Shown: positions 47,445 to 61,779 of the stretch, piece after piece
How the letters are laid out: each line of letters opens with the position of its first letter
Position numbering within the stretch: the stretch's first letter is position 1
DNA from: Herbiconiux sp.
GTDB taxonomy: Bacteria > Actinomycetota > Actinomycetes > Actinomycetales > Microbacteriaceae
Assembly (NCBI RefSeq): GCF_023264855.1
Contig: NZ_JAHFUW010000006.1
Span: 1 to 64,000, forward strand
Length of the DNA stretch: 64,000 nt
Direction: 5' to 3'
Position numbers and translations under genes: made by a program
The notes under the pieces: model-generated
The model's input: the letters and a program-made list of their open reading frames with translations, nothing else
Database searches by the model: none
Told to the model about the DNA's origin: nothing

Positions 47445-48206
47445 ATGAAGAACCAGTTCCGCCTCGACGGCAGCGTGGCCCTGGTGACGGGGGCCGGGTC
47501 CGGAATCGGCCGGGCGATCGCGATCGGACTGGCGAGGGCGGGAGCGGCCGTCGCCGCGGTCGACCTCACCGCCGAGCGCGTCGCCGGCACCGTCGCGGCC
47601 ATCGAGCAGGAGGGCGGGCGCGCGCTGGCCGTCGCCGCCGACGTCTCGACCGATCAGATCTCGGATGCCGTCGACGAGGCCCAGCGCACCCTCGGCCCGC
47701 TCGAGGTCGCCGTCAACTCCGCCGGGATCGCCCGGGCCGTGCCGGCGCGGGACATGACGGTCGAGGAGTTCGAGGCGATGTACCGCATCAACGTCACCGG
47801 CGTGTTCCGCAGCTGCCAGGCCGAGGCGCGGGCGATGGCCGCTCGCGGCGGCGGGTCGATCGTCAACCTCGCCTCCATCAGCGGCATCGTGTCGCATCGG
47901 CAGATGCTGCAGGCGCACTACAACAGCTCGAAGGCGGCGGTCGCGCACCTCACCCGTTCGCTGGCGACCGAGTGGGCCGCCGACGGCATCCGCGTGAACG
48001 CGCTCTCGCCCGGCTTCACCCTCACTCCCATGAACCTGCGCGACGAGGTGGCCTCGATCCGCGAGAGCGTGTCGCACGAGATCCCGCTCGGCCGCTTCGC
48101 CGAGCCCGCCGAGCTCGTGGGGCCTGCGATCTTCCTGCTCTCGGAGGCCTCGTCGTACTGCACCGGGGTGAACCTCGTCGTCGACGGAGGCTTCACCCTG
48201 CTCTGA
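47445..48206 (+). CDS. SDR family oxidoreductase
   Basis: 253 residues. VTGAGSGIGRAIAIGL (NAD site), SIVNLASISGIVS (Ser), YNSSKAAVAHL (Tyr/Lys, about residue 157), NLVVDGGFTLL tail. AAAGGAG fixes the ATG at 47445. First gene of the long operon, directly before its sugar-binding lipoprotein, so it probably oxidises the imported compound or a polyol derived from it. Confidence 0.9.
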   Translation: MKNQFRLDGSVALVTGAGSGIGRAIAIGLARAGAAVAAVDLTAERVAGTVAAIEQEGGRALAVAADVSTDQISDAVDEAQRTLGPLEVAVNSAGIARAVPARDMTVEEFEAMYRINVTGVFRSCQAEARAMAARGGGSIVNLASISGIVSHRQMLQAHYNSSKAAVAHLTRSLATEWAADGIRVNALSPGFTLTPMNLRDEVASIRESVSHEIPLGRFAEPAELVGPAIFLLSEASSYCTGVNLVVDGGFTLL

Positions 48207-48210
48207 TCCC

Positions 48211-48256
48211 CGTCTCCCGTACCCGAGGAGACGCCCTTGCCCGCCATCACGGCGGG
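48211..48256 (+). other. Two small hairpins before the SBP gene
   Basis: CGTCTCC/GGAGACG (48211-48233) and CCCGCC/GGCGGG (48240-48256) in tandem between the SDR stop and the AAAGGAGG of the binding-protein gene. Possible processing or stability elements in the transcript. Confidence 0.45.
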
Positions 48257-48284
48257 ACCCTTACCAAAGGAGGTAATGAGTCAC

Positions 48285-49292
48285 ATGAAAATCGTCAACA
48301 GCACCCGAACCCGCACTCGCACCCTGGCCGTGGCGGCCGTCGTGGGCGCCGCCGCCCTCGTGCTCTCCGGCTGTTCCGTGGACAACGCCGACGCCCCGAG
48401 CGGCGGCAGCACCGGCGGCAGCGATTCGAAGACCATCGGTGTCTCGATGTCGTTCGTGAACCAGTTCTACTCCGCCGCCCAGGAGGGCATGGAGGACGAG
48501 GCCGAGGAGCAGGGCTACAAGCTCACCGTTCTGAACGCCCAGGGCAACAGCTCCACCCAGGTGAACCAAGTGCAGAACCTGGTGAGTCAGGGCGTCGGCT
48601 CGATCATCTTCATCCAGCTCGACGCCTCCTCCGGCGGTGCGTCGCTGGACCAGGCGAGCGCGGCCGGCATCCCGGTCATCGGGGTCGACCAGGTGCCGGT
48701 CAGCGACGACTACGTCACCTACATCGGCAGCGACAGCGTCGAGATGGCCAAGCAGACCTGCGACTACCTGAACGAGCTGCTCGGCGGGAAGGGCCAGATC
48801 GCCATTGTCGAGGGCATCCCCGCCTCCTCCACCCAGATGCAGCGCACCGAGGGTTGCGGCGACGTGCTCACCGCGAACCCGGGGCTGGACGTCGTGTCGA
48901 CCACCAGCGCCGACTGGGATCAGAACAAGGCGGTGAGCGTGTTCACCAACGTGCTCACGGCGAACCCGGGCCTGCAGGGCGTCTTCGCCCAGAACGACGA
49001 CATGGCGCTGGGTGTCGCGAGCGCCATCCAGACCGCGGGCGCACCGCAGATCCCGGTGGTCAGCATCGACGGATTCCCGGCCGCCTACACCGCGATCGAG
49101 GACGGCACGATGACCTCGACGATGAGCCAGCAGCCCTACAACATGGGCCGCCTCGCGGTGAAGAACGCCATCCAGGCGATGAACGGCGATGCCGCCGACA
49201 TCCCGAAGACGCAGATCCAGGATTCCGTGCTCGTCACGAAGGACAACCTCGACGAGGCCCGTGCCGCCAAGTACTACGGCAGCCAGGGCTGA
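48285..49292 (+). CDS. Sugar ABC transporter substrate-binding lipoprotein
   Basis: 335 residues, Peripla_BP_4 (RbsB-like). Signal peptide and lipobox LVLSGC (Cys about residue 33), Gly/Ser linker, then KTIGVSMSFVNQFYSAAQEG and the later GVFAQNDDMALGVASAIQ and VVSIDGFPAAYTAIEDG typical of ribose/galactose binders. ATG 48285 favoured: AAAGGAGG is 11 bases away, only two bases from the ATG at 48276. Ligand unknown. Confidence 0.9.
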   Translation: MKIVNSTRTRTRTLAVAAVVGAAALVLSGCSVDNADAPSGGSTGGSDSKTIGVSMSFVNQFYSAAQEGMEDEAEEQGYKLTVLNAQGNSSTQVNQVQNLVSQGVGSIIFIQLDASSGGASLDQASAAGIPVIGVDQVPVSDDYVTYIGSDSVEMAKQTCDYLNELLGGKGQIAIVEGIPASSTQMQRTEGCGDVLTANPGLDVVSTTSADWDQNKAVSVFTNVLTANPGLQGVFAQNDDMALGVASAIQTAGAPQIPVVSIDGFPAAYTAIEDGTMTSTMSQQPYNMGRLAVKNAIQAMNGDAADIPKTQIQDSVLVTKDNLDEARAAKYYGSQG

Positions 49293-49313
49293 CCCACCCC
49301 CATCCCCACGATC

Positions 49314-49343
49314 GCGGCCGGCTCCCCTCGCGGAGCCGGCCGC
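49314..49343 (+). other. Hairpin between SBP and ATPase genes
   Basis: Perfect 12-bp stem GCGGCCGGCTCC / GGAGCCGGCCGC around a 6-nt loop. Same position as the hairpin of the first importer (29790-29828); likely raises expression of the binding protein relative to downstream genes. Confidence 0.7.
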
Positions 49344-49357
49344 CGAGGAGCAGACAG

Positions 49358-50842
49358 ATGACCGACGAGATCGCCACCACCCTGGTGGCCACCGGCCTGA
49401 TCAAGCGCTACGGCGAGGCGACCGTGCTGCGCGGGGTCGACTTCACCCTGGAATCCGGCACGGTGGTGGGCCTGATCGGCGAGAACGGCGCCGGCAAGTC
49501 GACGCTCAGCTCGATCATCGCGGGCATCAAGCAGCCGGATGGCGGATCGATGACCATCGACGGCCGGCCCTACGCGCCGTCGGGTCCGCTCGAGGCCCTC
49601 ACCTCGGGCGTCGCCATCATCCACCAGGAGATCAAGATGATCCCCGAGCTGTCGGTGGCCGAGAACATGTTCCTCGGCCGGGTGCCCACCCGCCGGGGCC
49701 GCGTCGACTACGCGGGCATGTACGAGAGCGCATCCGGCGTGCTGGCTCAGCTCGGGGTGCACCTGGACCCGCGGATGCTCGTCGGCGGCCTCTCAACGGC
49801 GACCCAGCAGGAGATCGAGATCGCCCGCGCCATCCTGCGCGAGCCCTCGTTCGTGATCTTCGACGAACCCTCCGCCTCGCTCGGCCAGGAGGAGACCGAG
49901 CGGGTGCTCGAACAGATCGGTCTGCTGCGCGACCGCGGCACCGGCGTGGTCTACATCAGCCACCGCCTCGACGAGGTCTCCGCCATCTCCGACCGCGTGG
50001 TGTGCCTGCGCGACGGAGCCAAGGTGGGCGATCGGCCGGCCGCCGAGATCGATCGCGACGGGATGATCCGGGCCATGGTCGGGCGCTCCATCGAGCGTCG
50101 CGCGATCGAGCCCGAACCGCACGGGAGCGAGGTGGTGGCGCGGGTCACCGATCTGTGCTCCGACCGCTTCGAGCACGTCTCGTTCGACCTGCACGAGGGC
50201 GAGATCCTGGGGCTCTCCGGGCTCGTGGGAGCCGGCCGCACCGAGATCGTGCGCGCCCTCGCGGGCGCCGATCCGTTCCGCTCCGGCGAGGTGGAGGTGC
50301 GCGGGCGGCGGGTGCGCATCCGCTCGATGAGCGACGCGATCGCCGCCGGCATCGTCATGGTGCCCGAAGACCGCAAGACCCAGGGCCTCAACCTCAACCG
50401 CTCCAGCGCCGAGAACATCGCCACGCCGTGGGAGTCGCGTCTGGCGAAGGGCTTCGTCACCCGGCGGTTCCTCACCAAGCTGAAGAAGCGGATGGCCGAG
50501 GAGCTCGACATCCGCGGCGACCTCGACAAGCCCGTCGGCCTGCTCTCCGGCGGCAACCAGCAGAAGGTGCTGCTCGGCAAATGGCTCGTGCAGAAGCCGA
50601 CCGTGCTCATCCTCGACGAGCCCACCCGCGGCGTCGACGTGGGCGCCAAGGAGGCGATCTACGAGATCATCCGCGGGCTCTCGCGTCAGGGAGTCGCCGT
50701 GATCGTCGTCTCCTCGGAGCTCGAGGAGGTGCTGCTGCTCTCGCACCGGGTGATGGTGGTGGCCGGCGGGCGGCCGCGCGATCTGCTCGACCGCGAGCAG
50801 GCGACGCCTGAGCGCATCATGCAGCTCTCGGTGCCGTCATGA
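49358..50842 (+). CDS. Sugar ABC transporter ATP-binding protein
   Basis: 494 residues, two nucleotide-binding domains. NBD1: GENGAGKSTLSSIIAG, FVIFDEPSASLG, with a weak signature (LSTATQQEIEIARA). NBD2: Walker A replaced by GLVGAGRTEIVRALAG, signature LLSGGNQQKVLLGKW, Walker B LILDEPTRGVDVG. RbsA/XylG family. The usual NBD1/NBD2 asymmetry of this family is seen. Energises the importer whose lipoprotein is encoded just upstream. Confidence 0.93.
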   Translation: MTDEIATTLVATGLIKRYGEATVLRGVDFTLESGTVVGLIGENGAGKSTLSSIIAGIKQPDGGSMTIDGRPYAPSGPLEALTSGVAIIHQEIKMIPELSVAENMFLGRVPTRRGRVDYAGMYESASGVLAQLGVHLDPRMLVGGLSTATQQEIEIARAILREPSFVIFDEPSASLGQEETERVLEQIGLLRDRGTGVVYISHRLDEVSAISDRVVCLRDGAKVGDRPAAEIDRDGMIRAMVGRSIERRAIEPEPHGSEVVARVTDLCSDRFEHVSFDLHEGEILGLSGLVGAGRTEIVRALAGADPFRSGEVEVRGRRVRIRSMSDAIAAGIVMVPEDRKTQGLNLNRSSAENIATPWESRLAKGFVTRRFLTKLKKRMAEELDIRGDLDKPVGLLSGGNQQKVLLGKWLVQKPTVLILDEPTRGVDVGAKEAIYEIIRGLSRQGVAVIVVSSELEEVLLLSHRVMVVAGGRPRDLLDREQATPERIMQLSVPS

Positions 50843-50901
50843 CGGCGGCGCCCGAACCCGACCCGACGACCCGCACCACCCGCACGACCGAAGGAGACAT
50901 C

Positions 50902-51963
50902 GTGACCAGCCCCGTGAACACCGCACCGGCAGCCCAGGCGGCGCCGACACCGCCGCCACCCCCGGCGAGCGCTCCGCCCGGGCCGGCGGCATCGGCCGGC
51001 CGGTTCCGGCAGGCCCTCCGGTCGATCTCGGGGCCGCTGGTGGGCCTGGTGCTGCTGGTCGTGGTGATGTCGCTGCTCTCGCCGGTGTTCTTCACTCCCA
51101 ACAACCTGGTCAACATCCTGGTGCAGGTCTCCTACATCGGGATCATGGCCGCCGGGGCGACCCTCGTGATCATCCTGGGCGGGATCGACCTCTCGGTCGC
51201 CGCCGTGCTGGGCTTCAGCTTCATGGTGGTGGCCGTGCTCTACCAGAACCTCGGCTGGCCGTTCTGGCTGTGCATCATCGCCGGGCTCGCGGTGGGTGCG
51301 GGGGTGGGTCTGGTCAACGGGGTGCTGATCGCCTTCGGCAACGTGCAGCCGTTCATCGCGACCCTGTCGACGATGTTCGCCGCAACCGGCCTCTCGCTCT
51401 ACCTCACCAACGGAACCCCCATCCTCGGCCTTCCCGACTGGTTCCAGGGGCTCTCGCACGTGAGGCTGGCGGGCATCTCGCTGCAGGTCTTCCTGATGAT
51501 CGGCGTGTTCGTGATCGGCGGACTGTGGCTGAAGTACCGGCCGGCCGGCCGCTCGCTCTACGCGATCGGCAGCAACGACGAGGTGGCCAGGCTCTCGGGC
51601 ATCCGGGTGAAGGCCATGCAGTTGCGGGTCTATGCGATCGCCGGCCTGCTGGCGGCCGTGGCGGGTCTGGTCGTGGGTGCGCGGCTGAACGCCGCCCAGC
51701 CCTCGGCGGGCAACTCGAGCGATCTGCTGAGTGTGATCGCGGCCGTCGTGATCGGCGGGGCTAGCCTCGCCGGCGGTGTCGGCTCGATGCGCGGCACCTT
51801 CATCGGCCTGCTGATCATCGGTGTGCTGAACAACGGCCTCACGCTCCTGAACGTCTCGCCCTACCTGCAGCCCGTGGTGATCGGCGCCGTGATCATCCTC
51901 GCCGTGCTGAGCGACGGCAAGCTGATCGGCCAGCTGCGCGCACGATTCCGGCGGCGCGCATGA
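50902..51963 (+). CDS. Ribose-type ABC transporter permease
   Basis: 353 residues from GTG 50902, which follows AAGGAGACATC; an ATG at 50839 overlapping the ATPase stop (ATGA) would add 21 residues and cannot be excluded. N-terminal Pro/Ala-rich cytoplasmic part, then about ten helices; LGGIDLSVAAVLGFSFM and VVIGGASLAGGVGSMRGTFIG are RbsC landmarks. Only one permease here, so a homodimer. Stop overlaps the SDR start. Confidence 0.88.
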   Translation: MTSPVNTAPAAQAAPTPPPPPASAPPGPAASAGRFRQALRSISGPLVGLVLLVVVMSLLSPVFFTPNNLVNILVQVSYIGIMAAGATLVIILGGIDLSVAAVLGFSFMVVAVLYQNLGWPFWLCIIAGLAVGAGVGLVNGVLIAFGNVQPFIATLSTMFAATGLSLYLTNGTPILGLPDWFQGLSHVRLAGISLQVFLMIGVFVIGGLWLKYRPAGRSLYAIGSNDEVARLSGIRVKAMQLRVYAIAGLLAAVAGLVVGARLNAAQPSAGNSSDLLSVIAAVVIGGASLAGGVGSMRGTFIGLLIIGVLNNGLTLLNVSPYLQPVVIGAVIILAVLSDGKLIGQLRARFRRRA

Positions 51964-52766
51964 GCGCGCGGGTCTGGGACCCTGCCCTGTTCGAGGGCCG
52001 GGTCGTCGCGGTCAGCGGCGCCGCATCCGGGATCGGTGCGGCCATCGCGCAGGCGTTCCTCGACTGCGGAGCCGTAGTGGTGGGCGGCGACATCGACGAG
52101 GCGGCCGGCCGGAGGTTCGCCGAGAGGCTGCCCGAAGGCGTCCGCTCGCGGTTCCGGGCCGTCGCCCTCGACGTGGCCGACCCGGAGTCGGCCGGGGCCT
52201 TCGCCGACGGCATCGCCGCGACCGAAGGGCGGCTCGACCTGCTGGTCAACAACGCGGGCGTCGCCCCGGTGGGCTCCGCGACCGACACCAGCGACGCCAC
52301 CTGGCGGCGGGTGATGTCGGTCGACCTCGACGGCGCGTTCTACCTCGCGCGGGCGGCACTGCCCCTGTTGATCGCGAACGGTGGATCGATCGTCAACACC
52401 GCCTCGGTGTCGGGCACCGGCGCCGACTTCAACTACGCCGCCTACAACGCCGCGAAAGGGGCGATCGTGAACCTCACCCGCAGCCTCGCCGTCGACTACG
52501 GCAAGAAGGGCGTGCGCGTGAACGCGATCGCTCCGGGGCCGGTGCGCACCCCGTTGCTGCAGGGCAACCTCGACGCCCTGCCCGGGCTCGAACAGGCCTT
52601 CCACCGCTTCATCCCCCTCGGGCGGATCGCCGAACCGGATGAGGTGGCCGGCGCCGTCGTCTTCCTCGCCTCGCCGGCCGCCTCCTTCATCACGGGCGTC
52701 ATCCTGCCCATTGACGGTGGGGTCACGGCCTGGAACGGTCAGCCCAACGGCGATTTCGTCGACTAG
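51960..52766 (+). CDS. SDR family oxidoreductase
   Basis: 268 residues: VSGAASGIGAAIAQAF, LVNNAGVAPVGSAT, NTASVSGTGADFNYAAYNAAK (Ser, Tyr, Lys; first and last parts), ITGVILPIDGGVTAWNGQP. ATGA overlap with the permease gene. Second classical SDR of the operon, so at least two alcohol/ketone steps on the imported compound. Confidence 0.88.
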   Translation: MSARVWDPALFEGRVVAVSGAASGIGAAIAQAFLDCGAVVVGGDIDEAAGRRFAERLPEGVRSRFRAVALDVADPESAGAFADGIAATEGRLDLLVNNAGVAPVGSATDTSDATWRRVMSVDLDGAFYLARAALPLLIANGGSIVNTASVSGTGADFNYAAYNAAKGAIVNLTRSLAVDYGKKGVRVNAIAPGPVRTPLLQGNLDALPGLEQAFHRFIPLGRIAEPDEVAGAVVFLASPAASFITGVILPIDGGVTAWNGQPNGDFVD

Positions 52767-52828
52767 ACGCCCCGCCGCACACCGATCAGCCACCGCCCAC
52801 CAGCTGCCTCCCGAAAGGATCCTTCCCC

Positions 52829-53839
52829 ATGAAAGACGGGATGTTCATCTTCGACTGCGTCGTGCACACGCAGGACTTCACCGACCGCCAGATCGCGCCC
52901 GGAACCGACGGCAAGAACGTCGTCGCCCACCGCACCAATCAGCAGGAGTTCAACAAGCTGATGGCCAGCAAGGGCGGGCCGGCCGACAAGCCCGACTTCT
53001 ACGACCCGGTCGACCCCGACTGGGCAAGGGCACAGCTGTTCGAGCGCTCGGACACCGACATCGCCATGGTGCAGACCGTGCCGCTGTTCGGCCCGTGGAA
53101 GGACTCGCTCGGTCCCGCCCAGCTCTGCTACGACCTCACCCAGCGCGATCCGGAGCGGCTGATCTTCTGCGGCGGCGTCGACCCGAGCTGGCAGGGCCTC
53201 GAGTTCGCGCTCGACGAGATGGAGCGCCAGGTCGTCGAGTGGGGCGCCAGGAGCTTCAAGTTCTACGGCTACCAGGATCGCGACCACCACTGGCGGGCGG
53301 ACGACCCCGAGCTCGCCTATCCGCTCTACGAGAAGGCGCTCGAGCTCGGCATCAAGATGGTGCAGTTCCACAAGGGCTACCCGCTCGGCATGCACCCCGT
53401 CGAGGCGTTCAAGCCGAACGACCTGCAGATGGCCGCCTACGACTTCCCCGACCTGAACTTCGGCATCCACCACATGGGCGACCCGTACGTCGACGAGACG
53501 ATCTCGATCGCCGGGCGCTTCCCCAACATCCACCTGATGCTGCCGCTGTGGTTCAACCAGTACTTCCTGCAGCCGTACCCGATGCTGCACCGGATCGGCC
53601 AGGCCCTGCTGATGGTCGGCCCCGACCGGCTCGCCTACGGATCGGAGGGCTTCATCTGGCCCGACGTGCAGGCCTACATCACGATGTGGGCGAACCTCGA
53701 GATGCCCGACGAGCTCCAGGACAAGTACGGCTACCCCGAACTCACGCGCGAGATCAAGGAGAAGATCTTCGGCCTGAACTTCGCGAACGCCCTCGGCTAC
53801 GAGATCCCCGAGCAGTACCGCGGAGGCGAGCGGTCATGA
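52829..53839 (+). CDS. Amidohydrolase_2 family protein with altered metal site
   Basis: 336 residues, TIM-barrel amidohydrolase of the ACMSD/Amidohydrolase_2 type. The N-terminal HxH metal motif reads MFIFDCVVHTQDF, with Val in place of the first His; later His are kept (VQFHKGYPLGMH, FGIHHMGDPYVDE), while the usual fGSDyP Asp is Glu (LAYGSEGFIWP). So a decarboxylase, lactonase or hydrolase with an unusual metal site. AAAGGA before the ATG; stop overlaps the Nfu-like gene. Confidence 0.78.
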   Translation: MKDGMFIFDCVVHTQDFTDRQIAPGTDGKNVVAHRTNQQEFNKLMASKGGPADKPDFYDPVDPDWARAQLFERSDTDIAMVQTVPLFGPWKDSLGPAQLCYDLTQRDPERLIFCGGVDPSWQGLEFALDEMERQVVEWGARSFKFYGYQDRDHHWRADDPELAYPLYEKALELGIKMVQFHKGYPLGMHPVEAFKPNDLQMAAYDFPDLNFGIHHMGDPYVDETISIAGRFPNIHLMLPLWFNQYFLQPYPMLHRIGQALLMVGPDRLAYGSEGFIWPDVQAYITMWANLEMPDELQDKYGYPELTREIKEKIFGLNFANALGYEIPEQYRGGERS

Positions 53840-54123
53840 CCGTCGACCGCGCCGCTCTCGAGCAGGCGCTCGAGTTCATCCGGCCACGCCTGCGCGGGCA
53901 CGCCGGCGACATGGACGTGCAGGTCGACGACGAGCAGGGCGTGGTGGAGGTCACCTTCTGGGGGGCCTGCGAGAGCTGCCCCGCCATGGCGGTCACCTAC
54001 GCGGGCCTGGTGTCGACCACCCTCGAGAAGGTTCCCGGCGTCACCCTCGTGCGAGCCGAGCAGGTGCACGCTTCGCCGCGGGCGCTGCTCGGCATCCGCC
54101 GCCGGCTGGGGATGGCGTCGTGA
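53836..54123 (+). CDS. NifU C-terminal-like (Nfu) iron-sulfur protein
   Basis: 95 residues, stand-alone Nfu domain: LEFIRPRLRGHAGDMDVQV, VEVTFWGACESCPAMAVTYA with the CxxC cluster site (about residues 46-49), then LEKVPGVTLVRAEQ. Binds and passes on an Fe-S cluster. Overlaps both neighbours by four bases, between amidohydrolase and PRISE-like reductase, which is an unusual home for a Nfu protein; no isc/suf gene is near. It may mature or form part of an enzyme of this pathway. Confidence 0.82.
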   Translation: MTVDRAALEQALEFIRPRLRGHAGDMDVQVDDEQGVVEVTFWGACESCPAMAVTYAGLVSTTLEKVPGVTLVRAEQVHASPRALLGIRRRLGMAS

Positions 54124-55175
54124 GCGTTCTCGTGGTGGGGGCGCACGGCGTGGCCGGAGGGGCGGCGGCGGCGCACCTGTCGTCGATGGGGCGGCCGGTC
54201 ACCACCCTGGGGCGCCGGCCTGTCGAGCCGGCACCGGGTGACCCGGCCGCCATCCGCTCGCACCTGCAGGCCGACCTGCTCGATCCGGACTCCCTCCCGC
54301 CGGAATCGCTCTCCGGCATCACCGCGGTGGTCTACGCCGGTTACGCCGAGCGAGCCGGGTTCGCCGAGACGACCGAACTCAACGAACGGATGCTCGCCGG
54401 GCTCCTGCACGCCCTGGAGCGCGACGGGGCCGCTCCCGAGCGCTTCGTGCTGATCGGCGGCGACAAATCCTACGGCGAGCACCTCGGGCCGTATCGCACG
54501 CCCGCCAAGGAGTCGGATCCGCGACTGCTCGGCCCCATCCTGTACAACCCGCAGGAGGATCTGGTGCAGGGCGCCGCAGCCCGGTTCGGCTGGAGCTGGA
54601 CCGTGCTGCGCCCCGACGGGATCTTCGGGCACAGCATCGGTTCGCCGATGAACATCCTCACCGGGATCGCGGCGTTCGCGACCCTCAGCAAAGAGGAGGG
54701 CGTGCCCCTGCGCTACCCCGGCTCGCTGGCCGGCTGGGGTGCGCTGCACCAGGCCACCGACGCGCGCATTCTCGCGCGGGCCGTGGGATGGGCGCTGGAC
54801 GCCGAGACCGCGCGCGACGAGGTCTTCAACGTGACCAACGGCGACACCTTCCGCTGGAAGCACCTCTGGACCGACATCGCCGAATTCTTCGACCTTCCGG
54901 TGGGGGAGCCGCAACCGCTCGACCTGGCCGGGCAGATGCGCGGTCAATCGGCCCGCTGGCGGCGTCTTGCCGAGCGCGACGGCCTGCGCATCACCGAACT
55001 CGACGACTTCGTGCGCTGGCCGTTCGTTCAGGGCTGGCTCGACACCGGCTACGACATGGTGCAGAGCACCGTGAAGATCCGCATCGCCGGCTTCGGCGAC
55101 GCCATCGATTCGCACGAAAGCCTGCGCGATCACCTGCTGCAGCTGCGCCGACACCGCTTCATCCCCGCCAATTGA
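54120..55175 (+). CDS. PRISE-like NAD(P)-dependent reductase (SDR75U type)
   Basis: 351 residues, atypical extended SDR. N-terminal VLVVGAHGVAGGAAAAHL instead of TGxxGxxG; VLIGGDKSYGEHLGPY, SWTVLRPDGIFGHSIGSP, YPGSLAGWGALHQATDARIL and FNVTNGDTFRWKHLW are, from memory, the marks of the progesterone 5-beta-reductase/iridoid synthase group, which reduces activated C=C bonds of enones. Lys in GDKSYG is their catalytic Lys region. GTG start overlaps the Nfu stop. Points to an unsaturated carbonyl intermediate in the pathway. Confidence 0.75.
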   Translation: MSVLVVGAHGVAGGAAAAHLSSMGRPVTTLGRRPVEPAPGDPAAIRSHLQADLLDPDSLPPESLSGITAVVYAGYAERAGFAETTELNERMLAGLLHALERDGAAPERFVLIGGDKSYGEHLGPYRTPAKESDPRLLGPILYNPQEDLVQGAAARFGWSWTVLRPDGIFGHSIGSPMNILTGIAAFATLSKEEGVPLRYPGSLAGWGALHQATDARILARAVGWALDAETARDEVFNVTNGDTFRWKHLWTDIAEFFDLPVGEPQPLDLAGQMRGQSARWRRLAERDGLRITELDDFVRWPFVQGWLDTGYDMVQSTVKIRIAGFGDAIDSHESLRDHLLQLRRHRFIPAN

Positions 55176-55182
55176 CAAAAAG

Positions 55183-55197
55183 CGGACACAACGTCCG
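55183..55197. promoter_or_regulatory. Inverted repeat CGGAC-N5-GTCCG with nearby TTGACA
   Basis: In the 70-bp gap before the transketolase genes. TTGACA at 55172-55177 could be a -35; the closest -10-like hexamer is at poor spacing. Possible internal promoter or operator in the operon. Confidence 0.4.
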
Positions 55198-55245
55198 AAA
55201 TATGGTAATTTAGAGCCATTCCAATCCGATCGTAGGAGCGAGAAC

Positions 55246-56169
55246 ATGACCGAACGAAGCGAACGACCACCGCTGGGTGAGTTGGAGCGGCTCGCTCGAC
55301 TCGTGCGCTGGCATGTGCTCAACACCGTCGCGCAGAGCAAGGCCGGCCACATCGGCGGCCCCCTCTCCATGACCGACCTGCTCGTGGCGCTGTACTTCTC
55401 CGAGCTCTCCATCGACCCCGCCCGGCCGGACGACCCGGATCGCGACCGCTTCGTGCTCTCGAAGGGCCACTCGGCCATCGGCCTCTACTCGGTGCTGGCG
55501 CTGCGGGGCTACTTCCCGGTGGACGAGCTCTCGAGCTTCGATCACGGCGACTCACGGCTGCAGGGGCATCCCGACATGCGGCTGACGCCCGGGGTCGACG
55601 TGTCGAGCGGGTCGCTCGGCCAGGGGCTGTCGGCAGGGGTGGGCATCGCACTCGGTGCCCGGGCCCGGCAGCAGCCCTTCCACACCTGGGTGGTGCTCGG
55701 CGACGGCGAGCTGCAGGAGGGCATGGTGTGGGAGGCCGTGAACTCCGCCAAACGTTTCGGGCTGAGCAACCTCACGGCCATCGTCGACCTCAACGGACTC
55801 CAGCAGTACGGCTGGGCGGCCGAGGCCGGTCGCGACCGGTTCGATCGCAGCGAGCCGTGGGGTCACGCCGACCTGCCGATGATCTTCCGCGGTCACGGCT
55901 GGAACGTGATCGAGATCGACGGCCACTCCTTCGAGGAGATCTTCGGCGCGTTCGACCGGGTGCGGGAGGCGGCATCCGCCGGTCTCGGCCCCTCGGTGAT
56001 CGTGGCCCGCACCGAGAAGGGACACGGCATCTCCTTCACCCGGGGCACCTACAAGTGGCACAACGGCGTGGCCGACGACGCGCAGCTCGCCCTGGCGCGA
56101 GCCGAGCTGCTGACCGAGCCGGAACCCGTGGCGGAAGCCGCACTACTGACAGAAGGAGACCGGTCATGA
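55246..56169 (+). CDS. Transketolase N-terminal subunit
   Basis: 307 residues: the thiamine-diphosphate domain alone. HVLNTVAQSKAGHIGGPLSM, RFVLSKGHSAIGLYSVLALR, GQGLSAGVGIALGARAR, and LGDGELQEGMVWEAVNSAKR followed by NLTAIVDLNGLQ (the GDG...N ThDP/metal motif). Needs the next gene for the pyrimidine-binding half. TAGGAGCGAGAAC before the ATG; stop overlaps the second half (ATGA). Moves a two-carbon ketol unit; the donor here is unknown. Confidence 0.93.
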   Translation: MTERSERPPLGELERLARLVRWHVLNTVAQSKAGHIGGPLSMTDLLVALYFSELSIDPARPDDPDRDRFVLSKGHSAIGLYSVLALRGYFPVDELSSFDHGDSRLQGHPDMRLTPGVDVSSGSLGQGLSAGVGIALGARARQQPFHTWVVLGDGELQEGMVWEAVNSAKRFGLSNLTAIVDLNGLQQYGWAAEAGRDRFDRSEPWGHADLPMIFRGHGWNVIEIDGHSFEEIFGAFDRVREAASAGLGPSVIVARTEKGHGISFTRGTYKWHNGVADDAQLALARAELLTEPEPVAEAALLTEGDRS

Positions 56170-57116
56170 AAGCGCAGCGCGATGTCTGGGGCGAGACCCT
56201 CGTCGAGGTCGCCCGCACCGACGAGACGGTGATGGTGGTCGACGGCGACCTGGCCAACTCCACCAAGGCCGATCTGTTCGCGGCGGCCTATCCCGACCGT
56301 TTCGTCGAGGTGGGCATCGCCGAGCAGAACATGGTGGGGATCGCCTTCGGCCTCTCCACGCTCGGCTACCGACCGTGGCTGTCGACGTTCGGGGTGTTCC
56401 TCACCCATCGCGCGCTCGACCCGATCCGGATGCTGGTGTCGCAGACGGGCGCGCCGGTGCGGCTGGCCGGCGCGTACAGCGGCCTGCTCAACGGCAGCAG
56501 CGGCAAGACGCATCAGGACATCGAAGACCTCGCCATCATGCGGGCGATGCCGAACCTCACCGTGATCGCACCGGCCGACGAGGTCGAGGCCGCCGCCGTG
56601 GTGCGCTGGGCCTGCGAGCACGACGGGCCCGTCTACGTGCGGCTCGCCCGCGACGCCGTGGCTCCCGTGCTGCCCGAGGACTACGAGTTCGAGCTCGGCC
56701 GGGTGGTGCAGCTGCGCCCCGGCGGCCCGATCGCGCTGGTCTCGACCGGGGTGCAGTCCAGCCGGGTGATGCAGGCGGCCGCACTGCTCGAGGCCGACGG
56801 CGTCGACGTGCGGGTGGTGCACGTTCCCACCATCAAGCCGCTCGACGAGTGCTCGCTGCTCGATGCCCTGGAGGGCTGCAGCCAGGTCATCACGGTCGAG
56901 GAGCACTCGGTGATCGGCGGCCTCGGCGGCCTGGTGGCCGAGACGCTCACCACGCACGGGCTCGCTCTGCCGGTGACCCGGCTGGGGCTCGCCGACTCCT
57001 GGTCGGAGTCGGGGCCGAACGGGTTCCTGCTGGAGAAGTACGGCCTCTCGCCCGAGCAGGTCGCGGTGCGCGTGGTGGCCTCGCTGCTGGTCGGTCTACC
57101 GACCCGGGCGGGTTGA
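56166..57116 (+). CDS. Transketolase C-terminal subunit
   Basis: 316 residues: pyrimidine-binding and C-terminal domains. VDGDLANSTKADLFAAAYPD, FVEVGIAEQNMVGIAFGLST (catalytic Glu), SGKTHQDIEDLAIMRAMPN, GPVYVRLARD, and VITVEEHSVIGGLGGLVAET. Forms one enzyme with the preceding gene. Split transketolases of this type commonly serve special pathways rather than the pentose phosphate pathway; one known example is the sulfo-transketolase route. Confidence 0.93.
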   Translation: MKAQRDVWGETLVEVARTDETVMVVDGDLANSTKADLFAAAYPDRFVEVGIAEQNMVGIAFGLSTLGYRPWLSTFGVFLTHRALDPIRMLVSQTGAPVRLAGAYSGLLNGSSGKTHQDIEDLAIMRAMPNLTVIAPADEVEAAAVVRWACEHDGPVYVRLARDAVAPVLPEDYEFELGRVVQLRPGGPIALVSTGVQSSRVMQAAALLEADGVDVRVVHVPTIKPLDECSLLDALEGCSQVITVEEHSVIGGLGGLVAETLTTHGLALPVTRLGLADSWSESGPNGFLLEKYGLSPEQVAVRVVASLLVGLPTRAG

Positions 57117-57118
57117 TC

Positions 57119-58189
57119 ATGGCGAGCCGGCCGCACGCCCCCACAGGCGCACGCACCGCTCCCCGAGTGGTGACGCTCACCCCCTCGCCGGCGATCGACC
57201 GGGTCTACTCCGGCGACGGGATCGTTCCGGGGGTGGTCAACCGGGTCAGCTACCAGAACTCCTACCTGGCGGGCAAAGGCCTCAACATCGCCTACGGCCT
57301 CTCGCTGGTCTCCCCGCACGTGAAGGCGGTCGTGCCGCTCGGCGCGGTCGACGGCGCTCCGCCGCACCGCGGATGGTGGCCCGACGTGGCCGACGGCGTG
57401 GTCGAAGTGGTGCCCGTGAGCCGGCCGGTGCGGCAGAACGCCATCATCGCCACGGTCGACGGACACACCACGAACCTCAACGAGGAGCCACCCTCGCTCG
57501 ACCGCGCGGAGTGGGCCCGCACCGTCGACCGCACCCTGGCGATGATCGAGTGGATCGGGGCGGATCGGCTCGTCGTCGGCGGGACTCTTCCCCGCGCCAC
57601 CGAGACGGGTGGCCACGTCGACCTCGGCCCGCTGTTCGAGTCCGCCCACGCGCTCGGCGCCCGCATCGCCATCGACATGAGCGGCACCGCGCTCTCCCGC
57701 TACGCCCGGCATCCGCTGGTCGATGTGATCAAGCCCAACCTCAGCGAACTGCAGGGCATCGCGCACGACACCTTGCGCACCTTCGGTGACGTCGTGGAGG
57801 CCGCCCGGGCCGTGATCCGGCGCCACGGCAGCCCGCTTACGGTCGTCGTCAGCCTCGGCGAGGACGGTCTGCTCGGCGTGCGCGCCGATGCGGTCAGCTG
57901 GGCACCCGCCCTCGCGGTCCCCGTGGTCAACACCACGGGAGCGGGCGACTCCGCGCTCGCCGGAGTACTCAGCGCCCTCGACCACCCCACCGACCCGGTG
58001 CATCCGCTCGACGAGGCGATCGCGATCGGAGCCACCTGGGGTTCGCTCGCCGTCGCGCACTCCACCACCAGGCCGCCCCAGCTCCCGGTGCGAGCACTCG
58101 TCGCCACCGAACCCGTCCAGTCCCATCAGGCACTCGCGGAGCCCTCGGCCATCCGCACGGTGTCCGGTCTCACAGGAGCACACGCATGA
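57119..58189 (+). CDS. PfkB family sugar kinase (1-phosphofructokinase/LacC-like)
   Basis: 356 residues. VVTLTPSPAIDRVYSGDGIV, YQNSYLAGKGLNIAYGLSLV (substrate site), VVGGTLPRATETG, DVIKPNLSELQGIA, and NTTGAGDSALAGVLSAL with the catalytic Asp (about residue 280). Phosphorylates a sugar (phosphate) or keto-polyol. Starts two bases after the transketolase stop and overlaps the aldehyde dehydrogenase gene. Gives the phosphorylated ketose that a transketolase could use; order of steps is inferred. No aldolase gene is present. Confidence 0.85.
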   Translation: MASRPHAPTGARTAPRVVTLTPSPAIDRVYSGDGIVPGVVNRVSYQNSYLAGKGLNIAYGLSLVSPHVKAVVPLGAVDGAPPHRGWWPDVADGVVEVVPVSRPVRQNAIIATVDGHTTNLNEEPPSLDRAEWARTVDRTLAMIEWIGADRLVVGGTLPRATETGGHVDLGPLFESAHALGARIAIDMSGTALSRYARHPLVDVIKPNLSELQGIAHDTLRTFGDVVEAARAVIRRHGSPLTVVVSLGEDGLLGVRADAVSWAPALAVPVVNTTGAGDSALAGVLSALDHPTDPVHPLDEAIAIGATWGSLAVAHSTTRPPQLPVRALVATEPVQSHQALAEPSAIRTVSGLTGAHA

Positions 58190-59652
58190 ACGACCACGAA
58201 CGACAGCTGATCGACGCGATCCCGAGCGACCTCTTCATCGGCGGCGAGTGGCAGACCGCCTCGGGCGGAGCGCGCTTCGACGTGGTCGATCCGTCGACCG
58301 GGGAGGTGCTCTGCTCCGTGGCGGATGCGGACCCGGCCGACGGGATGCGCGCCCTCGACGCCGCGGATGCCGCGCAGGCGGCCTGGGGCCGCACGGCACC
58401 GCGCACGCGGAGCGACCTGCTGCAGCGCTGGTACGGCCTGGTGCACGAGCACGCCGACCGGCTCGCCCTGCTGATGACGCTCGAGATGGGCAAGCCGCTC
58501 GCCGAGTCGCACGGCGAGATCCGCTACGGCGCCGAGTTCATCCGCTGGTTCGCCGAAGAGGCGGTGCGGGTGAACGGGCGCTACACACCCGTGCCCGAGG
58601 GCACCGGCACGATGGTGGTGACGCACCGCCCCGTCGGACCGTGCCTGCTGGTCACCCCGTGGAACTTCCCGCTCGCCATGGCGACCCGCAAGATCGCGCC
58701 CGCACTGGCCGCCGGCTGCACGGTGGTGATCAAGCCGGCCGCGCTGACACCCCTGACCACTCTCTATCTGGTGCGGCTGCTCGAGCAGGCCGGGCTGCCC
58801 GCCGGCGTCGTCACTGTGATCACCACCAGCCGCTCGGGTGCCGTCTGCGCGCCGATCATCGCCGACCCGCGGCTGCGCAAGCTCAGTTTCACCGGCTCCA
58901 CCGACGTCGGGCGCGCTCTGCTGCGCCAGGCCGCGGACTCCGTGCTGCGCACCTCGATGGAGCTCGGCGGGAACGCGCCGTTCGTCGTGTTCGAGGACGC
59001 CGACCTCGCCGCCGCCGTGGAGGGGGCGCTCGCCGCGAAATTCCGCAACACCGGACAGGCCTGCACGGCGGCGAACCGCTTCTTCGTGCACGAGTCGATC
59101 GCCGAGGAGTTCGCCCAGACGCTGGCCGCCCGCGTGCGGGGCTTCGCCGTCGGGCGCGGCACCGAGCCCGGTGTGGTGATCGGTCCGCTGATCGACGACG
59201 CGGCCGTGGCGAAAGCCGACTCCCTGGTGCAGGATGCGCTCGGCCGCGGTGCCCGGCTGCTCGCCGGGGGCGCCGCGATCGAGGGACCTGGCAGCTTCTA
59301 CCAGCCCTCGGTGCTCACGGGCGTCGACCCCGGGTCGCGCATCGTCGCCGAGGAGATCTTCGGGCCCGTGGTGTCGATCGTCCCGTTCGCGAGCGAGGCC
59401 GAGGCGATCGCCTTGGCCAACGCCTCGGAATACGGGCTCGCCGCGTACGTCTACACCCAGGACCTCCAGCGCGCCCGACGGATGATCGACCTGATCGACA
59501 CCGGGATGATGGGCATCAACGCCGGCGTCATCTCCAACGCGGCCGCGCCGTTCGGCGGCGTCAAGCAGTCCGGGCTCGGTCGTGAGGGCGGCGCCGAGGG
59601 CATCCACGAGTATCTCGAGACCAAGTACAGCCTGATCCCGAGCGAGGTGTGA
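58186..59652 (+). CDS. NAD-dependent aldehyde dehydrogenase (succinate-semialdehyde type)
   Basis: 488 residues, full-length GabD-like. VTPWNFPLAMATRKIAPALA, LSFTGSTDVGRALLRQAA, MELGGNAPFVVFEDADL (Glu, about residue 262) and FRNTGQACTAANRFFVHES (Cys, about 296); INAGVISNAAAPFGGVKQSG near the end. Oxidises an aldehyde released in the pathway, perhaps from the transketolase or a later cleavage. ATGA/GTGA overlaps on both sides. Confidence 0.92.
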   Translation: MNDHERQLIDAIPSDLFIGGEWQTASGGARFDVVDPSTGEVLCSVADADPADGMRALDAADAAQAAWGRTAPRTRSDLLQRWYGLVHEHADRLALLMTLEMGKPLAESHGEIRYGAEFIRWFAEEAVRVNGRYTPVPEGTGTMVVTHRPVGPCLLVTPWNFPLAMATRKIAPALAAGCTVVIKPAALTPLTTLYLVRLLEQAGLPAGVVTVITTSRSGAVCAPIIADPRLRKLSFTGSTDVGRALLRQAADSVLRTSMELGGNAPFVVFEDADLAAAVEGALAAKFRNTGQACTAANRFFVHESIAEEFAQTLAARVRGFAVGRGTEPGVVIGPLIDDAAVAKADSLVQDALGRGARLLAGGAAIEGPGSFYQPSVLTGVDPGSRIVAEEIFGPVVSIVPFASEAEAIALANASEYGLAAYVYTQDLQRARRMIDLIDTGMMGINAGVISNAAAPFGGVKQSGLGREGGAEGIHEYLETKYSLIPSEV

Positions 59653-59969
59653 GAGTGGCTGCCACCCCGCCGCCGCGGTCGGCGACGATCGCCAAAATGG
59701 TCTTCCTGGCGGTGCATGACGACCGGCGAGACGAATTGCTCACCCTTCTCGAGGCCACGCGCCGGTCCAGCGCCGAGGAGCCGGGAACGCTCCAGTGGGA
59801 ACTCCACGACGACCTCGACGGCGCCTGGTCGTTCGCGCTCTACGAAGCCTTCGCCGACGACGAGGCCGTCGCGGCGCACGACCGATCCACGGCCGTCGAG
59901 GCGTTGCTGGCAGGGTTCGCGCAGTGTCTGAGCTCTCCGCCGGTCGCGCACCTGCTCCGCGTTCGGTGA
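59649..59969 (+). CDS. ABM-domain protein
   Basis: 106 residues from a GTG overlapping the dehydrogenase stop; an ATG at residue 17 is an alternative. MVFLAVHDDRRDELLTLLEA, EEPGTLQWELHDDLDGAWSF, YEAFADDEAVAAHDRST: ABM/YgiN-type ferredoxin fold, cofactor-free oxygenase or quinol monooxygenase-like. Second ABM protein of the window beside the one at 44219. Confidence 0.8.
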   Translation: MRVAATPPPRSATIAKMVFLAVHDDRRDELLTLLEATRRSSAEEPGTLQWELHDDLDGAWSFALYEAFADDEAVAAHDRSTAVEALLAGFAQCLSSPPVAHLLRVR

Positions 59970-60030
59970 CATCCCCGACGCGCCTGCACCATCAGACTCC
60001 CCTTCCGACCATCAGATAGGAACCCCCACA

Positions 60031-60981
60031 ATGACCAAGACCCGCGTGCTCGTGACCGGAGCGGTCGGCTACATCGGCCAGGCCGTCAGTCAGCGCCTGC
60101 AGATCGGCGGCTACGCCGTCAGCGGCCTGTCCCGCTCGAGGGCCGGGCTGCGCGCACTGGACGCGCGCGGCATCACCCCCGTGCAGGGCGACCTCGACGA
60201 CGCGCCCCTTCTCGAGCGTCTGGCGGGGGAGTTCGACGTGATCGTCGACACCGCCACCGCCGACCACGCCGAGTCGACCGCCGCCTTCCTGCGCGGCCTC
60301 GACGGCTCGGGCAAGACGTACGTGCGCACCAGCGGGACGGGCGTGTACACCGACCTCGCGCACGGCGCCGCATCCGATGCCGTGTTCACCGAGGAGACTC
60401 CACATATTCCGGCGGAGGTGGTCGCCACCCGCTACGCCTCGGATGCGGCTGTGCAGGCGGCGGCCGAGCGGAACATCCGCACCGTGGTCATCCGGCCCTC
60501 GATGATCTACGGCGACGGGGCCAGCGAGCAGCTGCCCCTGCTGATCCGCCGGGCGATCATCTCGAACCGGAGCGTCTACGTGGGCGACGGACTGAACCGG
60601 TGGTCGAACGTCTACCTGCCCGACCTCGCCGAGGTCTATGCGCTGGCGCTGGAGAAGGCGCCGGCGGGCTCGGTGTACAACATCGGCTCGGGCGAGGCTG
60701 CGATGGCCGACATCGCGGGAGCTGTGGCGACCCTGATCGGTCTGGGGGCGGCGGAGTCGTGCTCGGCGCAGGAGGCGTTCGACGCCTTCGGGCAGCGCTG
60801 GGTGGAGGTCGCGCTCTCCAGCAACAGCCGGGTCGACTCCACCAAGGCGCGGGAGGAGCTCGGCTGGAATCCGCTCGGCCCCTCGCTGCTCGAAGACCTC
60901 ACCTACGGTTCGTACAAGAGGGTGTGGTCGTTCAAGGGCGATCCGCACGACCACGCGCCGGCCGCCGGCGCCGGGCACTGA
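60031..60981 (+). CDS. NAD-dependent epimerase/dehydratase-like (extended SDR)
   Basis: 316 residues. TGAVGYIGQAVSQRLQIGGY (NADP site), VIVDTATADHAESTAAFL, YVRTSGTGVYTDL, TVVIRPSMIYGDGASEQLP, RWSNVYLPDLAEVYALAL. The usual YxxxK is not clean (TRYASDAAV), so it belongs with atypical reductases or binding proteins of the NmrA/epimerase group. AGGAACCCCCACA before the ATG. Three bases separate it from the last SDR gene. Confidence 0.8.
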   Translation: MTKTRVLVTGAVGYIGQAVSQRLQIGGYAVSGLSRSRAGLRALDARGITPVQGDLDDAPLLERLAGEFDVIVDTATADHAESTAAFLRGLDGSGKTYVRTSGTGVYTDLAHGAASDAVFTEETPHIPAEVVATRYASDAAVQAAAERNIRTVVIRPSMIYGDGASEQLPLLIRRAIISNRSVYVGDGLNRWSNVYLPDLAEVYALALEKAPAGSVYNIGSGEAAMADIAGAVATLIGLGAAESCSAQEAFDAFGQRWVEVALSSNSRVDSTKAREELGWNPLGPSLLEDLTYGSYKRVWSFKGDPHDHAPAAGAGH

Positions 60982-60984
60982 ACG

Positions 60985-61779
60985 ATGGACCTGCAGCTGG
61001 CAGGGCGTCTCGCCCTGGTCACCGCGTCGACCGCGGGCATCGGCAAGGAGATCGCGGCCGCGCTGGCGGCCGAAGGCGCCCATGTGATCGTGAACGGCCG
61101 CTCGCCGCAATCGGTCGACGCCGCGGTCGCCGAGCTCTCGGCGCGCATCCCCTCGGCGCGGTTCGAGGGGCTGGTGGCCGACAACGGCACAGCCGAGGGT
61201 GCCGCCGTCACGGTGGAGGCGTATCCGGCGGTCGACATCCTCGTCAACAACCTCGGCATCTACGGCGCGGTCGACTTCCTCGACATCACCGACGACGCCT
61301 GGCAGGAGATGTTCGAGGTGAACGTGATGAGCGGGGTGCGCCTGGCCCGGCACTACCTGCCCGGGATGCGGGCGACGGACTCCGGGCGGATGATCTTCGT
61401 GGCCAGCGAGGCGGCCGTGATGCCCTCGGCCGAGATGGTGCACTACAGCGCGTCGAAGACCATGCTGCTCGGCGTCGCGCGGGGGGTCGCCGAGCACACG
61501 AAAGGCACGGGGGTGACCTCGAACGCGATCGTGGTCGGTCCCACGAAGACCGATGGGGCGGTGTCGTTCATCGGCGAGCTCTATCCGGGCGTGCCGTTCG
61601 AGGAGGCCGAGGCTCTTTTCATGGGGCCGGGCGCCGCGCGGGGGACCTCGCTCATCGGTCGTCTGATCCGGCCGGAGGAGGTGGGCGGGCTGGTGGCGTA
61701 CGTCAGCAGTCCGCTCGCCGCGGCGATCAACGGTGCGGCCCTGCGGATCGACGGAGGAGTGATGCGCAGCGTGTTCTGA
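60985..61779 (+). CDS. SDR family oxidoreductase
   Basis: 264 residues: VTASTAGIGKEIAAALAAEG (NADP site), ILVNNLGIYGAVDFLDITDD, MIFVASEAAVMPSAEMVHYS (Ser), YSASK (Tyr/Lys, about residue 154), GAALRIDGGVMRSVF. Pattern of the group with an NNLG motif in place of NNAG. Last gene of the long operon. Confidence 0.88.
   Translation: MDLQLAGRLALVTASTAGIGKEIAAALAAEGAHVIVNGRSPQSVDAAVAELSARIPSARFEGLVADNGTAEGAAVTVEAYPAVDILVNNLGIYGAVDFLDITDDAWQEMFEVNVMSGVRLARHYLPGMRATDSGRMIFVASEAAVMPSAEMVHYSASKTMLLGVARGVAEHTKGTGVTSNAIVVGPTKTDGAVSFIGELYPGVPFEEAEALFMGPGAARGTSLIGRLIRPEEVGGLVAYVSSPLAAAINGAALRIDGGVMRSVF

Follow-up and report, generated by a model that had tools for sequence, protein, structure and literature searches.

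What does an operon break down when it joins a split transketolase to a PfkB kinase, a NifU-domain protein and a reductase of the PRISE family, and do such genes serve a single pathway at all? We addressed this question for fifteen genes at positions 47445-61779 of a 64,000-nucleotide stretch of Herbiconiux sp. (assembly GCF_023264855.1, contig NZ_JAHFUW010000006.1; hereafter the window), whose contig is part of a 4.37-Mb draft genome. The operon is real and conserved, and we favor, with a probability of roughly 40%, the reading that it imports and breaks down a sugar-like or cyclitol compound via an unphosphorylated 5-ketoaldonic acid. Gene content, its conservation, the back-end genes common to inositol (iol) clusters, a common candidate operator and a transketolase tree were established here. 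The two best-supported advances are the back end of transketolase, succinate-semialdehyde dehydrogenase (SSADH) and IclR genes common to iol clusters, and the pairing of an amidohydrolase with a small Fe-S-carrier-type protein.

A conserved catabolic operon

Gene calls and family scans give the following genes, three of which encode classical short-chain dehydrogenases/reductases (SDRs) and two the halves of a thiamine diphosphate (ThDP)-dependent transketolase (TKN and TKC):

47445..48206, plus: SDR1, PRK06114-like dehydrogenase (347.8 bits, cut-off 360)
48285..49292, plus: RbsB-like sugar-binding protein of a CUT2-type importer (RbsB 167.6 bits, cut-off 337)
49358..50842, plus: two-domain sugar ABC ATPase (AraG/XylG/RbsA models, under cut-offs)
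50839..51963, plus: sugar ABC permease, RbsC-like (model score under cut-off)
51960..52766, plus: SDR2, BudC-like vicinal-diol dehydrogenase (NF052558 298.2 bits, over the 270-bit cut-off)
52829..53839, plus: Amidohydro_2 TIM-barrel protein, HxH motif incomplete (PF04909, 96.7 bits)
53836..54123, plus: NifU-domain protein, CxxC kept (PF01106, 43.4 bits)
54120..55175, plus: PRISE-family reductase (PF22917, 49.6 bits, cut-off 27)
55246..56169, plus: TKN, ThDP-binding half of the split transketolase (closest solved chain 6yak, a split-chain transketolase, 1.5e-70)
56166..57116, plus: TKC, pyrimidine-binding and C-terminal half of the split transketolase (family scan)
57119..58189, plus: PfkB kinase, 1-phosphofructokinase-like, not IolC (TIGR03168 175.6 bits, cut-off 216.4)
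58186..59652, plus: SSADH-like aldehyde dehydrogenase (TIGR01780 553.4 bits, cut-off 646.35)
59649..59969, plus: ABM-fold protein, LsrG-like (3qmq LsrG, 2.4e-07)
60031..60981, plus: extended SDR of the NAD-dependent epimerase/dehydratase family (family scan)
60985..61779, plus: SDR3, third classical SDR (family scan)

The widest intergenic gap measures 78 bases, from 48206 to 48285 (79 as a coordinate difference), and seven gene pairs overlap by 4 bases (ATPase/permease, permease/SDR2, amidohydrolase/NifU, NifU/PRISE, TKN/TKC, kinase/aldehyde dehydrogenase and aldehyde dehydrogenase/ABM). An earlier note on this DNA had described the same fifteen plus-strand genes and the same gap size, with six overlaps, a tally that depends on the choice of starts; its further statement that the run is headed by a tandem IclR pair does not hold, because the pair lies on the minus strand, divergent from the operon, and thus flanks the transcript rather than heading it. 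The sugar importer that it assigned to the operon fits the family models for binding protein, ATPase and permease.

All fifteen genes, in identical order and with the divergent IclR pair, recur in Subtercola lobariae at 75-95% identity (ABM protein, 61%). A core set of 20 loci was found by scanning named genomes with the amidohydrolase (at least 51% identity; 19 genomes, some near-duplicates) in Subtercola, Promicromonospora, Microbacterium, Mycolicibacterium, Arthrobacter/Paenarthrobacter, Mesorhizobium, Ensifer/Sinorhizobium, Rhizobium, Agrobacterium, Shinella, a Rhizobiales isolate (two loci), Pseudooceanicola and Amycolatopsis; since several of these loci are close relatives, the counts that follow are not independent events. 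Gene content was scored by tblastn (E up to 1e-5) within the fetched flanks. The NifU gene was present in 20/20 core loci, relatives of the sugar ABC ATPase in 19, the PRISE gene in 17, both transketolase halves in 16 and the aldehyde dehydrogenase in 10, this last figure being a lower bound because some loci stop at a contig end; the extended SDR (7/20), the ABM protein (4/20) and PfkB (3/20) are lineage-restricted. Three loci (L019, L021 and L024) carry transketolase and aldehyde dehydrogenase about 18 kb away on the same contig or island, which brings the transketolase to 19/20, and the Amycolatopsis locus, for which no related transketolase was found genome-wide at 1e-40, has a ThDP-type frame after its NifU gene. 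An SDR related to SDR3 (35-41%) occurs in rhizobial clusters, the aldehyde dehydrogenase of the Shinella plasmid is merely 35% identical to that of the window, and the Shinella importer is annotated as a carbohydrate ABC system.

As controls we took the surroundings (10-19 kb) of 16 more distant amidohydrolases, which contain neither PRISE (0/16) nor transketolase (0/16). Six of 72,556 plasmid records carry the amidohydrolase at 60% identity or higher, and the same six carry the NifU gene. Close to home the amidohydrolase is scarce, with matches at 1e-30 in 3/248 genomes of the order (our own and two at 33-38%) and in 2/16 of the genus (our own and one at 34%); split transketolases are commoner (36/198 genomes of the order at 1e-40). 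Retention of content from actinobacteria to alphaproteobacteria, while gene order and transporter type vary, supports the earlier note's proposal that a single pathway is dedicated to an imported compound resembling a sugar or polyol, and the neighborhood co-occurrence check that it suggested came out positive, with transketolase halves, NifU and PRISE genes recurring together around amidohydrolase relatives in both groups.

The transketolase back end and its regulators

A maximum-likelihood tree of 53 transketolase N halves, with four long branches flagged, all among general transketolases, separates two clades at 100/100 support. The first unites seven actinobacterial amidohydrolase operons, four iol clusters and two further genomes (G673 and G714); within it, an iol row and the Arthrobacter/Paenarthrobacter rows cluster together (93/85), nested in a 100/94 group made up of the four iol rows and two such rows. 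The second comprises the rhizobial, Pseudooceanicola and Mycolicibacterium rows together with transketolases from sugar and sugar-acid clusters of Shinella, Paraburkholderia and Rhodococcus and those of Agrobacterium and Phaeobacter, the Mycolicibacterium N half pairing with Rhodococcus (95/85). This topology suggests that transketolases of these kinds were recruited to the amidohydrolase core on several occasions, and that one and the same type also works with an iol front end. Two side observations concern these enzymes: in one Agrobacterium locus both halves form a single frame of 620 residues (L025, 7940-9802, minus strand), and another contig of our own genome (C82; L035, 11294-13160, minus strand) holds a second, distant split transketolase, 40% identical to that of the window, beside SDR and other oxidoreductase-like genes.

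The closest plasmid-borne relative of TKN lies on a Curtobacterium plasmid (L101), in a stretch with iolG, two isomerase/epimerase-family genes, iolB, iolD, an SSADH gene, a divergent IclR pair, TKN, TKC, PfkB and phosphoenolpyruvate carboxykinase (PEPCK), with no gene annotated as iolC. Identity to the window is 66% for TKN, 64% for TKC, 54% for the aldehyde dehydrogenase, 37% for PfkB, and 39% and 43% for IclR1 and IclR2. On the IolC model (cut-off 300) the Curtobacterium and window kinases score 33.5 and 27 bits, respectively, and the former reaches 194.6 bits on a hexose-kinase model (cut-off 216.4). In a search of 249 Microbacteriaceae genomes, the transketolase matched in 14 (our own included) at 1e-60. 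Apart from our own, five reach at least 72% identity; of these, G821, G851 and G663 repeat the iol arrangement beside a split transketolase. G673 combines a 66%-identical aldehyde dehydrogenase, PfkB, an IclR pair, a sugar-type ABC importer and a window-type transketolase, with an L-idonate 5-dehydrogenase-like gene nearby (227.7 bits, below cut-off), and G714 carries the transketolase without aldehyde dehydrogenase, PfkB and IclR companions. All four iol clusters (L101, L122, L123 and L124) contain iolG, a TIM-barrel isomerase-family gene, iolB, iolD, the split transketolase, PfkB and SSADH and lack iolC; PEPCK follows in three (L101, L122 and L123), and the isomerase-family gene of L123 matched a dehydroshikimate-dehydratase model, not that of IolE. 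Across the 21 genomes examined, iolC was above cut-off in 8 and iolD in 10; G714 has iolD elsewhere in its genome and no iolC above cut-off.

In Rhodococcus, the transketolase belongs to the second clade and precedes SSADH, a gene annotated as a putative quinol monooxygenase and an L-idonate 5-dehydrogenase-like gene (277.9 bits, cut-off 469). The earlier note had treated the likeness of transketolase and aldehyde dehydrogenase to the sulfo-transketolase route as a minor overlap; we find instead that the two genes belong, together with PfkB and the IclR pair, to a back-end module found again next to iol genes and partly next to L-idonate 5-dehydrogenase-like genes, a recurrence that points to the cleavage of 5-ketoaldonates. 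Related split transketolases on plasmids of Agrobacterium and Phaeobacter (L103 and L105) sit next to genes for aminotransferases, GntR, SDRs and an ABC importer; this may be the same chemistry applied to an amino-sugar acid.

The regulators offer a second link between these clusters:

45682..46437, minus: IclR2 regulator (PcaR/BhcR-type IclR models, under cut-off; 43% to Curtobacterium IclRb)
46434..47216, minus: IclR1 regulator, divergent from the operon (family scan; 39% to Curtobacterium IclRa)
47311..47323, plus: candidate IclR operator GAACN4TGTCY (comparison of IclR-side intergenic regions)

The pair is separated from the operon by 228 bases, and the pattern GAACN4TGTCY occurs once in the IclR-side intergenic region at 10 of the 11 loci with an IclR pair, that is, in five amidohydrolase operons (the window included), the four iol clusters and G673. 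Elsewhere it was counted three times in the IclR-pair loci and six times in 834 kb of 44 other loci, a contrast that is descriptive because the pattern was taken from the regions later counted. The case for an operator rests on this comparison, since the two occurrences in the window (0.60 expected) were equaled or exceeded in 13 of 100 shuffles. An inverted repeat in the same gap of the window, CTGGACAC, was set aside in favor of GAACN4TGTCY, as none of the other ten regions contains it as an exact 8-base repeat.

Outside these features, a luciferase-like flavin monooxygenase is encoded upstream of the IclR pair (44640-45668, plus strand) and the Arthrobacter cluster has another luciferase-like gene nearby (L014, 17992-18963); just past the operon and up to the window end (62464-63984, plus strand) lies the gene of a secreted protein, by eye similar to subtilase-type peptidases.

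The amidohydrolase and its small partner

The AlphaFold model of the amidohydrolase is a TIM barrel (pLDDT 81.9). Among the best 50 of 75 Foldseek neighbors at E ≤0.001, the top-ranked are ACMSD, aromatic-acid decarboxylases and the C-C hydrolase LigY, and the best TM-score belongs to the uncharacterized structure 3irs. Fold and family are those of Amidohydrolase_2, with altered metal ligands (V-x-H for HxH and Glu for the last Asp). Its neighbor retains CxxC in 22 of 22 aligned rows and falls short of the full NfuA and NifU equivalogs (24.4 and 21.1 bits, cut-offs 273.3 and 269.35).

A profile search detected the wider amidohydrolase clade in 29 of 394 Actinomycetes genomes, our own included. 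We inspected 29 loci other than the window (L039-L067), some of them close relatives, and left out three further matches; a Fe-S-carrier-type partner, MIP18 or NifU, comes next in 24 of the 29. In the 26 loci that were scanned, the following gene belonged to the MIP18/FeS_assembly_P type in 22, to the NifU type in two and to unrelated families in two, and it overlapped the amidohydrolase by 4 bases in 12. No Fe-S-type partner gene was found in L043, and L052 stops at a contig end; L032 and L034 have a MIP18 partner too, and none is visible by eye in L033 and L036. In L065 just a short MIP18-like start is readable after the amidohydrolase, the partner gene seeming truncated or shifted. Neighbors of the wider clade, again by eye, include di-iron monooxygenase genes (L073 and L077), a Rieske-type oxygenase (L059) and ThDP enzymes (L027 and L032).

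Two papers on propane monooxygenase clusters report a metal-dependent hydrolase followed by a metal-sulfur cluster gene (PMC4428276, PMC6849523). New here is that the pairing extends past the propane clusters, with NifU replacing MIP18, for which we found no description in the open-licence literature. Since it spans other contexts and the partner type switches, the small protein may serve the amidohydrolase, and its presence in an operon with no recognizable di-iron enzyme suggests that it may serve the amidohydrolase itself; a role for NifU in supplying a di-iron oxygenase was discarded, as no such oxygenase is seen among the operon genes. The earlier note's description of the Nfu-like gene as an Fe-S carrier thus stands as to the NifU domain and CxxC motif and gives way as to a free carrier, the protein looking like a fixed partner of this amidohydrolase clade (20/20 core loci).

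The PRISE protein has progesterone 5-beta-reductase as its nearest solved structure (4.2e-39), and Lys and Tyr align to both of what we take to be the catalytic positions (K147 and Y179). PRISE matches on plasmids and an unannotated Paraburkholderia PRISE record yielded no lead.

Predicted pathway, rivals and known systems

The product of IolB, 5-keto-2-deoxygluconate, is a ketose acid, and L-idonate 5-dehydrogenase yields 5-ketogluconate. Both are HOCH2-CO-CHOH-R acids and therefore have the shape of a transketolase donor; their cleavage would leave malate or tartrate semialdehyde, plausible substrates of the SSADH-like enzyme, and a malate product would agree with the PEPCK gene found next to three of the four iol versions. 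The front end in the window probably also ends in a 5-ketoaldonate; opening of a cyclitol as a beta-diketone would yield one directly, as in the Thermotoga route. Every reaction of the pathway, like its substrate and its inducer, is a prediction. The ABC importer would bring the compound in, the SDRs would oxidize it to mono- and diketones, and the amidohydrolase/NifU pair would make the acid, most likely by hydrolyzing a C-C bond of a beta-diketone ring, with the PRISE protein reducing an enone intermediate or side product. From the resulting acid, HOCH2-CO-CHOH-...-COOH, the split transketolase would shift the two-carbon HOCH2-CO unit to an acceptor; what is left, malate or tartrate semialdehyde, is a four-carbon semialdehyde acid that the SSADH-like dehydrogenase would oxidize to a dicarboxylic acid. 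PfkB, where present, may phosphorylate the ketose made from the C2 unit, and the IclR pair may sense a pathway intermediate and act at GAACN4TGTCY. The substrate may be a sugar lactone or a cyclitol whose ring the amidohydrolase pair opens.

A more specific version is tentative, and rather unlikely to hold in all its parts. In it a cyclitol is converted to a beta-diketone whose ring is hydrolyzed by the amidohydrolase-fold protein with a dedicated Fe-S-carrier-type subunit, a general and unrecognized enzyme type of many catabolic clusters; the unphosphorylated 5-ketoaldonate is split by the heteromeric transketolase into a C4 semialdehyde and a C2 unit; and the same back end replaces IolC/IolJ/IolA in a malate-ending inositol route. 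The operon as a whole would represent a new form of sugar-acid cleavage by transketolase, possibly headed by a new two-part enzyme. In agreement with the earlier note, which knew of no described pathway with this set of genes, we found none in the open-licence literature.

Several observations weigh against the 5-ketoaldonate reading. A separate iolD, a few kb from an iolC, is also present in G821, G851 and G663, which means that their transketolase iol cluster may act on another cyclitol instead of replacing iolC; G634, with iolD but neither an iolC above cut-off nor a related transketolase, shows that iolD without iolC is not tied to the transketolase. PfkB is not core to the amidohydrolase operons, the SSADH-type dehydrogenase occurs in half of them, and the ABM protein of the window has no match in the Rhodococcus cluster at 1e-5. 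No PRISE gene was found genome-wide at 1e-25 in Promicromonospora (L010), Mycolicibacterium (L013) or Amycolatopsis. As Agrobacterium and Phaeobacter members adjoin aminotransferases, the other transketolase clade has other substrates. Beyond the descriptive nature of its contrast, the operator was not found in L013, which has an IclR pair, nor in L104, L014 and L028 (single or cut-off IclR gene), and its orientation varies: in the amidohydrolase operons it faces the operon, in the iol clusters and G673 the IclR genes, a difference of little weight should the site be the imperfect palindrome. The amidohydrolase matched no NCBIfam model even at an E of 1, including that of IolN (NF041098), and is thus not IolN; with uronate isomerase (from rank 24) and a putative 2-pyrone-4,6-dicarboxylate hydrolase (rank 28) also among its fold neighbors, ring hydrolysis by this protein is a fold-level guess. 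Finally, on positions mapped by motif that we take to be His461, Arg358 and Arg520 in E. coli numbering, the window transketolase has Tyr at the first, Arg at the second and probably Arg at the third, where the alignment is gapped. It thus appears to keep two of the three sites changed in a 5-ketogluconate-active variant, although these residues do not decide the substrate. That engineered variant, R358I/H461S/R520Q, also provides a precedent for the proposed cleavage, in that it converts 5-keto-D-gluconate to tartaric semialdehyde (PMC12016104, also PMC11066805); an earlier suggestion of transketolase plus SSADH for tartrate formation is termed not mechanistically validated in PMC12016104.

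The main rival is a lactonase route, in which the extended SDR oxidizes C1 to give a lactone, the amidohydrolase hydrolyzes it, a gluconate-5-dehydrogenase-like SDR produces the 5-ketoaldonate, and transketolase and aldehyde dehydrogenase finish the pathway. PF04909 includes sugar lactonases, the rank-28 fold neighbor is a putative hydrolase of this kind of bond, SDR1 scores 207.9 bits on the gluconate 5-dehydrogenase model (its third-ranked; cut-off 279), and L-idonate 5-dehydrogenase-like genes accompany related transketolases. Such a route, however, needs neither the PRISE reductase nor a Fe-S-type partner, the best-ranked fold neighbors are decarboxylases and a C-C hydrolase, and the HxH metal motif is incomplete, so that we regard it as unlikely while taking it seriously.

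Phosphorylation might instead come first, PfkB acting on a ketose and the split transketolase cleaving the phosphate, as in the D-apiose route, which passes through apulose 4-phosphate; nothing on apulose with transketolase was found in the open-licence literature. The joint presence of split transketolase, kinase and CUT2-type importer fits, as do two arginines that the window transketolase appears, by motif, to keep at what we take to be phosphate-binding sites. With PfkB in merely 3/20 core loci, no sugar isomerase among the fifteen genes and Tyr at the His461 position (again by motif), we consider this order of steps improbable. That the run is no single pathway, only several unrelated short operons lying head to tail, is more improbable still: order is shuffled between genomes and PfkB, ABM and extended SDR genes are lineage-restricted, but content is retained across phyla despite the shuffling, and PRISE and transketolase are absent from all 16 controls. 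Degradation of a steroid or terpenoid enone, with the PRISE protein as its reductase (progesterone 5-beta-reductases being nearest among solved structures) and the transketolase removing a ketol side chain like the product of desAB of Clostridium scindens, a split transketolase hypothesized to be a steroid-17,20-desmolase (PMC3735941), can be dismissed, given the sugar-type importer (ATPase relatives in 19/20 loci, carbohydrate annotation in Shinella) and the regulators and aldehyde dehydrogenase common to iol clusters.

If the 5-ketoaldonate reading is true, a transketolase branch would be added to inositol and sugar-acid catabolism, the orphan split transketolases that neighbor SSADH-type genes in both actinobacteria and proteobacteria would be accounted for, and natural enzymes for the production of tartrate or malate semialdehyde would be at hand. 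It also makes testable why one amidohydrolase clade, which the propane papers cited above mention as no more than an unexplained neighbor of propane monooxygenase, so often travels with a Fe-S-assembly-type gene.

Among known systems, the sulfo-transketolase route for sulfoquinovose pairs a split transketolase with an enzyme acting on the residual aldehyde, as the operon does. Membership in it was rejected: a search of the fifteen operon genes gave neither a sulfosugar isomerase, in line with the earlier note, nor a sulfoquinovosidase family. Inositol catabolism (iolG, iolE, iolD, iolB, iolC, iolJ, iolA) is linked to it in that four related records join iolG, iolB and iolD to a transketolase, PfkB, SSADH and IclR pair of the same kind; it differs in that the window has no iol gene, and the classical pathway was rejected for our own genome, where neither iolD nor iolC is above cut-off (TIGR04377, TIGR04382). 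The Thermotoga myo-inositol route through IolM, IolN and IolO follows the logic proposed here (two oxidations, then hydrolysis of the ring, with 5-ketogluconate as the product), and distant IolM- and IolO-like genes lie within about 12 kb of the amidohydrolase in the Shinella cluster; these score below cut-off, however (202.8 and 130.2 bits, cut-offs 450 and 300), and the amidohydrolase of the window falls outside the IolN family. The pair downstream of the propane monooxygenase genes prmABCD has the same amidohydrolase clade and a small Fe-S-assembly-type gene (PMC4428276, PMC6849523), but there the partner is of the MIP18 type, in the window it is of the NifU type, and the window operon has no di-iron monooxygenase. 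The chemistry predicted here is like the conversion of 5-keto-D-gluconate to tartaric semialdehyde in engineered Gluconobacter, also proposed in grapevine, in that an unphosphorylated ketose acid is cleaved between C4 and C5 and the semialdehyde then oxidized (PMC12016104 and PMC11066805). There the enzyme is an engineered one from E. coli, or the step is one proposed for a plant, whereas the enzyme here would be a split transketolase within an operon that also encodes an importer, SDRs, the amidohydrolase/NifU pair and a PRISE reductase.

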